Assembly (NCBI GenBank): GCA_021780495.1
Contig: JAJXYO010000012.1
Span: forward strand, 1-59,960
Direction of reading: 5' to 3'
Length of the DNA stretch: 59,960 nucleotides
From: Deltaproteobacteria bacterium
GTDB taxonomy: Bacteria; Desulfobacterota; Desulfuromonadia; Geobacterales; Pseudopelobacteraceae
Position numbers and translations under genes: made by a program. The stretch's first letter is position 1, and each line of letters opens with the position of its first letter. The notes below the pieces were generated by a model. The model was not told the DNA's origin. It made no database searches and saw nothing but the letters and a program-made list of their open reading frames with translations. Below are positions 44,086-45,722 of the stretch, in pieces.

Positions 44086-44556
44086 ATGGAATCTATCCGT
44101 GAGCAGTTGCAGATATTCACCCGACGTTTCGGGCTGTTGAACGAGTCGTGCTGCGACGCATGTTGCGGCGAGCAGGTCTCCATGACCCAGAGCCACATCC
44201 TGTTCGAGGTGCGCCGTTCGGGGAGCCCTTCGATGCAGCAGGTGGCTGAAGAGCTGGGCATTGATGTCACCACGTTCAGCCGTCAGGCCAAGGCGCTGGA
44301 GGCCAAGGGGCTCCTCTCCCGCTCCGTCTCTGCCGATGACCGGCGTGTAACCCGTCTGGGGTTGACCGCAGCCGGCATGCGGGTGCTGGAGAAGATCGAC
44401 CGCTATATGGCCGGGCGGCTGGAGAAGGTATTCGGCGGCATGACGCTCTTTGAGCGCGACTCTGTCGTCAGGTCCTTGGGGCTGCTGAATGACGCTGTTG
44501 CAAAGGCCGGAGAAGACGCCGTACATTCGGGAGGATCAATTGCATGTTGCAAGTAA
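44086..44556 (+). CDS. MarR-family regulator with Cys-rich N-terminus
   Basis: 156 residues from ATG 44086; an upstream in-frame ATG at 43987 adds 33 unlikely residues and would swallow the promoter palindrome. MarR winged-helix (about 40-115: MQQVAEELGIDVTTFSRQ, DDRRVTRLGLT). The segment NESCCDACCGE (residues about 18-28) and the terminal CCK offer thiols for metal or metalloid sensing. Its end overlaps the hgcA start by 13 bases, so it likely controls hgcAB. An ArsR-like regulator has been linked to hgcAB in other bacteria; here the regulator is of MarR type. Confidence 0.82.
   Translation: MESIREQLQIFTRRFGLLNESCCDACCGEQVSMTQSHILFEVRRSGSPSMQQVAEELGIDVTTFSRQAKALEAKGLLSRSVSADDRRVTRLGLTAAGMRVLEKIDRYMAGRLEKVFGGMTLFERDSVVRSLGLLNDAVAKAGEDAVHSGGSIACCK
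44540..44552. promoter_or_regulatory. Palindrome TTGCA-TGT-TGCAA over the hgcA start codon
   Basis: Second copy of the 13-mer found before the MarR gene, with the same 5-base arms. It contains the hgcA ATG (44544-44546) and sits at the MarR gene's 3' end. It may be a second operator, or chance in coding sequence. Confidence 0.35.
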
Positions 44557-45722
44557 ACCAGGGCGCGGCAGGACCATTCAAAATCAAAAGCATCCGGAAG
44601 ATCGTTTCGCCCGCCGGGAGCGCGTGCAGCACCGCCACAGCGGGTGACGGCAGCGACAAGCCCCCCTGCTGAGGCCCTCCGGTCTCCGCCGGCGGCGGAG
44701 CAATCACGGAGCAGGTACCCGGTTTCATCGCCTGGCTGGAGACCCCGGCCGGCCCGGTGCCACACATCTCATCCGAGCTGGGGCTTGGCGACCGCCTGGG
44801 GGCCTGCAAGGCGCGCTGGGGCATCGGCCGCATGGGATTCATGGTACCGCCCGGCCTGTATGCCCTTGGCCTCCCCCTGCCGTCCGACCCGGTGCTGGTC
44901 ACTGCCAACTACAAGATGAGCTACGACCTCGTGCGCCGCTCCTTGTCCGGGCGATCCTGCTGGCTGCTGGTGCTGGAGACCTACGGCATCAACGTCTGGT
45001 GTGCAGCCGGCAAGGGCACCTTCGGCACCGGCGAGCTGGTGCGGCGGGTCGCTGCCAGCGGCCTGGACAAGGTCGTCAGCCATCGGCGCCTGATCCTGCC
45101 GATCCTGGGCGCAGCCGGCGTGGCGGCCCATCAGGTCGCCCGGCGCTGCGGTTTTTCGGTCAGCTATGCCACCATCCGGGCCGGCGATCTGCCGGCCTAC
45201 CTGGACAACGGCCTGCTCACCACGGACGCGATGCGCGAACTGACGTTCAGCCTCTACGAGCGCCTGGTGCTGATACCGGTCGAGCTCGTACTGGCGCTCA
45301 AGTCCATCGCCATCATCGGCGGGGCAGCCCTGCTGGTGGTGGCCCTGCTGGGGACTCCCGCCGCAGGGCTCACGGCATTTTTTGCCTATCTGGGGGCGGT
45401 CCTGAGCGGGATCGTACTGGGACCGCTGCTGCTCCCCTGGCTGCCGGGGCGCAGTTTTGCCATCAAGGGCACCGTTGCCGGCCTGCTGTGGTGCGGGCTG
45501 TTCTATGCTGTTGCGGGTGGCCCGGGGTGGAACGGCGCCGTCACCACCGCCTTCTTCCTGGCTCTGCCGGCGGTCAGCGCCTTCTATACGTTAAATTTCA
45601 CCGGTTGTTCCACCTATACCTCCCGTTCGGGGGTCAAGAAGGAGATGCGCATCGCCCTGCCTGTCATGGCCGGCGCGTTGATTGTCAGCCTGATCCTGCT
45701 GCTGGCGGGAAGGTTCCGGTAA
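44544..45722 (+). CDS. hgcA: HgcA mercury-methylation corrinoid protein, with in-frame UGA (candidate selenocysteine)
   Basis: 392 residues if UGA codon 43 (44670-44672) is read. The ATG at 44544 has a strong GGGAGGA site (44529-44535). Cys153 lies in the HgcA cap-helix motif GINVWCAAGKGTFGTGEL, where the cysteine ligates cobalt. Upstream KARWGIGRM, PPGLYALG and VTANYK match the corrinoid domain; five membrane helices (about 245-390) with NFTGCSTYTSRSGVKKEM follow. HgcA hands a methyl group to Hg(II). Codons 42-43 are Cys-UGA. The frame after UGA encodes WLETPAGPVPHISSEL before any normal start (GTG 44757), so a start there would truncate it. Alternatives: nonsense mutation or sequence error. 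Confidence 0.85.
44670..44711 (+). promoter_or_regulatory. Candidate bacterial SECIS element in hgcA
   Basis: Right after UGA (44670-44672) lies a hairpin: outer CTCCG (44677-44681)/CGGAG (44707-44711), inner 7-bp CTCCGCC (44684-44690)/GGCGGAG (44694-44700), and apical loop GGC (44691-44693). The loop begins 18 bases after the UGA, and its first bases are G. Both fit the published rules for bacterial SECIS elements (loop 16-37 bases downstream, early G). GC-rich sequence can form such stems by chance. Confidence 0.5.

Follow-up and report, generated by a model that had tools for sequence, protein, structure and literature searches.

The hgcA gene of the window (the whole stretch of 59,960 nucleotides analysed here) is very probably a selenoprotein gene. 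Comparative sequence data point to decoding of its in-frame UGA at 44670 as selenocysteine (Sec) by SelB and tRNA-Sec, with a hairpin at 44684-44700 as guide, which would give a HgcA of 392 residues whose tail, predicted to be flexible, would carry a putative Hg(II)-binding Cys-Sec pair. This decoding is strongly supported, because homologues have Cys at the site, the hairpin is conserved and covaries, and Sec genes are found in the same genome. From the comparative evidence and the known bacterial pathway, we infer that Sec is actually inserted at residue 43 and that it is required for full HgcA to be made. The same lines of evidence, together with the finding that GTG 44757 is not conserved as a start, bear out the original prediction of a possible selenoprotein HgcA.

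The hgcA frame (44544-45722, + strand) runs from ATG 44544 to a stop at 45720-45722 and is open apart from a single TGA at 44670-44672, directly 3' of TGC (Cys42); the translation, which contains this one TGA, agrees with the frame first described. A ribosome-binding-site-like GGGAGGA, which had been noted as a strong site, was indeed read at 44529-44535 on the + strand, 5' of ATG 44544, and it counts as SD-like in our start scan. The codons TGC TGA (44667-44672, + strand) would specify Cys42-Sec43 in the motif PPC-U-GPP. With the UGA read as Sec, the protein scored 442.8 bits against NF040863 (HgcA_corrinoid) in a profile search, for a cut-off of 275. It consists of an N-terminal tail, a corrinoid-binding domain and five long C-terminal helices, which a predicted model places between residues 237 and 391, in agreement with the five-helix membrane domain expected of HgcA; in the same model, tail residues 1-50 are predicted to be disordered (pLDDT 34-40). 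The public gene call (P0001) is exactly the 321-aa product of the frame from GTG 44757 to 45722 on the + strand. It lacks 71 residues of the full frame, close to the loss of about 70 that had been expected of standard annotation.

The hgcB gene (45741-46034, + strand), 18 bases downstream of hgcA, encodes a dicluster ferredoxin (NF040864, 130.3 bits for a cut-off of 99) with Cys rather than Sec in its GVGC motif and a C-terminal CCS, and it terminates in TGA. On the other side lies the frame of a MarR-family regulator (43987-44556, + strand; PF01047, 48.5 bits on 44077-44553). It runs 13 bases into the start of hgcA, so that the two may be translationally coupled. Further upstream of hgcA, the region 40758-42757 holds a thioredoxin-like gene, a gene for a DsbD-type membrane protein and an ArsR-family regulator on the opposite strand. 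A 975-aa ORF at 48187-51114 on the - strand, which resembles UvrA, contains an insert, PLPTSPLKGEEPPPDSPPLQGEGQGGGGVRGRKGSSP, with the look of a genomic repeat that has been translated.

We aligned the window HgcA, its Sec written as C, with 27 chosen full-length homologues (28 rows). The UGA aligns with the second Cys of a CCG that is invariant in the N-terminal tail of these 27 homologues; a Cys at this position is what the original prediction had named as support for Sec. K39, P41, C42, C43, G44 and P45 are invariant in all 28 rows, as is C153, the cap-helix Cys in NVWCAAGK. The 27 homologues are of the Cys type, as expected of proteins called without UGA read-through. Among the 120 homologues listed as matches in the protein search, the tail (a CCG within the first 70 residues) was present in 68, 66 of them with CCGP, and absent from 52; Geobacter sulfurreducens PCA is not named among these 120.

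A survey of the class covered 277 genomes, of which 162 gave an HgcA match, and 130 loci were fetched, one per genome. UGA occupies the site in 96 of the 130 loci and Cys, in CCGP, in 13, and the codon directly before the UGA specifies Cys in all 96. The own family contributed 46 loci: 35 with UGA, 10 with Cys and one truncated at a contig end, with Cys in its other fragment. In the other families of the own order every locus has UGA (48/48), though in three the UGA lies one codon more distant from the cap motif. The rest of the class (36 loci) comprises 13 UGA loci, one of which has the codon two positions nearer the cap motif, three with Cys in CCGP, and 20 that belong to another HgcA lineage without a CCGP-type motif. 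In a survey of named records, UGA was counted at the same distance or one codon off and was found in 29 of the best 80 loci kept; 17 of these were already in the class survey and 12 were further ones. The named carriers include Pelotalea chapellei, four Geomonas species, Desulfobacteraceae, Syntrophales and a metagenome-assembled genome (MAG) labelled Nitrospirae. The last of these (GWC2_56_14, locus L059) has a UGA-type hgcA of the PPCUGPP kind, which reflects either a transfer or a wrong label. Finally, a phylum-wide draw gave UGA in 9 of 21 new loci, in eight cases preceded by Cys or part of a motif that contains Cys.

The predicted hairpin has the stem CTCCGCC/GGCGGAG and the loop GGC and lies at 44684-44700 on the + strand, that is, at +12 to +28 after the UGA. 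Eleven bases separate it from the UGA and 18 bases lie between the UGA and the loop, which opens with GG, as the original prediction had described. The hairpin appears in both the MFE and the centroid fold when the 40 nt downstream of the UGA are folded. For the window alone, the folding z was 0.36 over 71 nt, where the MFE is a different structure, -1.28 over 40 nt and -0.72 over 45 nt; only the 22-nt hairpin gave a z of -3.1. Taken by itself, the folding energy of this one sequence is a weak argument, and the case rests on comparison. Rfam at gathering thresholds gave no match in the window, and we therefore judged the hairpin by comparison as well.

For this we defined five core pairs, from +13/27 to +17/23. 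All five are formed in 88 of the 96 UGA loci versus none of the 13 Cys loci, and at least one is missing in the other eight UGA loci. In total, 469 of 480 cells are paired; 1000 shuffles gave a mean of 448 and a maximum of 455, none reaching 469, a count that does not amount to a probability as the sequences are related and not independent. Versions of the scheme slid along the sequence were at most 71% paired. At pair 13/27, the 3' side of which is a wobble (silent) position, the two sides covary (T-A 65, C-G 15, T-G 8, A-T 2, G-T 1, unpaired 5). The mean folding z of the 22 nt was -2.5 in UGA loci versus +0.2 in Cys loci. Outside the class the stem sequence differs, but most UGA loci that were folded have a hairpin in a comparable position; distant loci have other stems, such as GGCTC-AGGT-GAGCC, and some, such as L098, fold otherwise. 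The SECIS-like element of the original prediction is thus present, covarying and tied to the UGA.

The first alternative to consider is that the UGA is an ordinary stop, that HgcA is made from an internal start (GTG 44757 or a different one) and that the piece before the UGA acts as a leader peptide. The public gene call starts at that GTG, 52 of the 120 homologues among the matches listed are without the tail, and the HgcA of strain ND132, by its published numbering, is apparently shorter. Against this, the stretch from the UGA to 44757 shows about the same coding constraint as undisputed HgcA. From pairs of 95 UGA loci, we obtained a pN/pS of 0.26 for the five codons before the UGA, 0.34 for codons +1 to +9, 0.41 for +10 to +28 and 0.46 for +29 to +59, the last being undisputed HgcA. 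Thirteen codons immediately 5' of the KPPC stretch gave 0.87 and form a barely constrained, variable linker, which counts against the selenoprotein reading. The constraint seen both before and after the UGA supports read-through.

Our scan identified an in-frame start with an SD-like motif upstream of the UGA in 74 of the 96 UGA loci; it found none in the other 22, which again counts against the selenoprotein reading. At the position of GTG 44757, 42 of 96 loci have GTG, one has ATG and the rest mostly have a non-start codon; the V58 codon is GTG in 25 of 96. We tested these two positions across the 96 UGA loci as a conserved internal restart and found none. The first ATG after the UGA mostly falls at codon +54 (66/96), the conserved Met97 inside the corrinoid domain, and a restart there would therefore cut into this domain. 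The original prediction had noted no usual start between the UGA and GTG 44757, and the start at that GTG proved not to be conserved. In addition, 96 loci share the UGA at this codon and Cys takes its place in 13 others, and the hairpin goes with the UGA rather than with the Cys codon. We consider termination at this codon very improbable.

The decoding of the UGA as Sec requires a pathway, and the search for sel genes that had been suggested gave selA, selB, selD and tRNA-Sec (selC) in the own genome, all over cut-off (607, 370, 369 and 70.6 bits, respectively). The selD gene (L018, G000:C57:36566-37489) itself has an in-frame TGA, in GUAAK (AAGUAAKLGP), so that SelD, the maker of the selenium donor, is likely also a selenoprotein. 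Across the class survey, selA was found in 89 of 96 UGA genomes versus 8 of 13 Cys genomes (Fisher p 0.005, relatedness ignored), and in 27 of all 34 non-UGA loci. Seven UGA genomes gave no selA match: G207, G209, G216, G227, G194, G107 and G152. Among them, selB was over cut-off in G207, G209 and G194, and tRNA-Sec was found in G207, G194 and G107. Genome searches of G216, G227 and G152 gave none of selA, selB over cut-off and tRNA-Sec. G216 (L140) and G227 (L151) are MAGs rated 99% complete, and both have a UGA-type hgcA with the hairpin; their lack of sel genes is either a binning gap or a real loss.

These two MAGs are what speaks for a second alternative, in which the UGA is read through as another residue by a suppressor or a reassigned code, with no involvement of selenium. 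Such a reading leaves aside the hairpin, the Cys counterpart in homologues and the full Sec kit of the own genome, and TGA ends hgcB in that same genome; we give it very little credence. As for a sequencing or assembly error, or a decaying gene, the window does come from a draft of 68 contigs, but the same UGA in 96 loci, each from a separate genome, and an otherwise intact frame scoring far above the HgcA cut-off make this scarcely credible.

We return to the UGA as a Sec codon and to how it may have evolved. In an unrooted FastTree tree of 129 rows, the UGA label requires six changes and the Cys CCGP label four, three of which are forced by well-supported branches. With the other HgcA lineage, a clade of 20 rows plus the UGA row L210, set as the outside, the Cys forms lie inside the UGA clade. 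Because of this nesting, the tree suggests a repeated change from Sec to Cys, a direction that depends on where the outside is set. The sequences of some relatives have Cys in place of Sec, which indicates that Sec is not essential everywhere.

A possible part of the Cys-Sec pair in Hg or methyl handling was raised in the original prediction. What the pair might do is suggested, less firmly than the decoding, by two comparable motifs, the HgcB CC tail and the Cys pair at the C-terminus of MerA. Cys42-Sec43, in a tail predicted to be flexible, could bind Hg(II) tightly as a thiolate-selenolate pair, and the tail might then hand the metal over either to the CC motif of HgcB or to the corrinoid site. 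The Cys-Sec tail is in this respect a candidate Hg(II) site in an enzyme whose route of Hg entry is unsettled.

HgcA makes the neurotoxin methylmercury and, if these bacteria need Sec for it, selenium supply would bear on who methylates mercury. Most of the relatives examined share the UGA and a matching hairpin; methylmercury production in them would therefore depend on selenium. A wider proposal is possible, though we would sooner doubt it than rely on it: that in most hgcA-bearing Geobacterales nearly the whole of HgcA lies after a SECIS-gated UGA with no conserved restart, that selenium supply switches methylmercury synthesis, and that the Cys-Sec tail, itself disordered, binds Hg(II) more strongly than any other ligand in the complex and supplies it to the corrinoid. 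If this selenium-gated reading were true, the antagonism of selenium and mercury in methylators would partly be a matter of gene decoding. On the practical side, protein databases likely hold a shortened HgcA for many such bacteria, given the 52 tail-less proteins among the 120 matches listed. One UGA genome, that of Geobacter sp. AOG1, has a HgcA listed at 299 aa versus 385 when read through from the chosen start. Expression hosts without matching Sec decoding would yield no full HgcA.

The original prediction knew of no report of Sec in HgcA, but the novelty this implied falls away, as selenoprotein HgcA and HgcB were already in print. A 2026 review (PMC13188914) lists selenoprotein HgcA with the motif CU (NF040863, WP_250697417.1), citing its references 61 and 63, the latter being Haft and Gwadz 2023 (J Bacteriol), and a table in it lists selenoprotein HgcB with the motif GVGU. 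PMC11588087 likewise cites Haft and Gwadz for selenoprotein HgcA/HgcB. Selenoprotein HgcA has thus been predicted before, and the window provides a further gene of that kind, from another genome as far as seen. The frequency in Geobacterales, the hairpin covariation and the absence of a conserved restart may also be in print already, in Haft and Gwadz 2023. The HgcA of the review and that of the window belong to the same family, and the Cys-Sec pair is at residues 42-43 in the window; as the review entry gives the motif CU, the position is probably the same, this being the only neighbouring Cys pair of the window protein. The selenoprotein HgcB is the same operon partner, whereas the window HgcB has Cys (GVGC) at the residue concerned; we sought Sec in the GVGU motif and found Cys in all 188 loci parsed.

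Like bacterial SECIS elements such as that of E. coli fdhF, the window hairpin is a stem-loop directly after the UGA with a G opening a small loop, and some relatives of the window gene carry GGTC at the loop. The window hairpin has a sequence of its own, and stems vary by lineage at a similar position.

The HgcA of Pseudodesulfovibrio mercurii ND132 and that of the window have in common, the former as described in PMC11588087 and PMC7305189, the corrinoid domain, the strictly conserved cap-helix Cys, a C-terminal membrane domain (predicted in the window protein) and the hgcB partner. In both papers the corrinoid Cys of ND132 is numbered Cys93, as opposed to residue 153 in the window. With about 60 fewer residues before the cap Cys, the ND132 protein would, by this numbering, have little or none of the tail. 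Lysates of E. coli expressing ND132 HgcA made methylmercury, according to PMC11588087; since this protein is active apparently without most of the tail, the tail is presumably not needed for basic catalysis.

The HgcAB model paper (PMC7305189) proposes that the HgcB CC tail moves Hg(II) or methylmercury, and describes the C-terminal Cys pair of MerA as shown to acquire Hg(II). Like these, the window tail presents two neighbouring soft ligands; it differs from them in that the pair stands at the N-terminus of HgcA, with Sec replacing one Cys and with a role that is putative.
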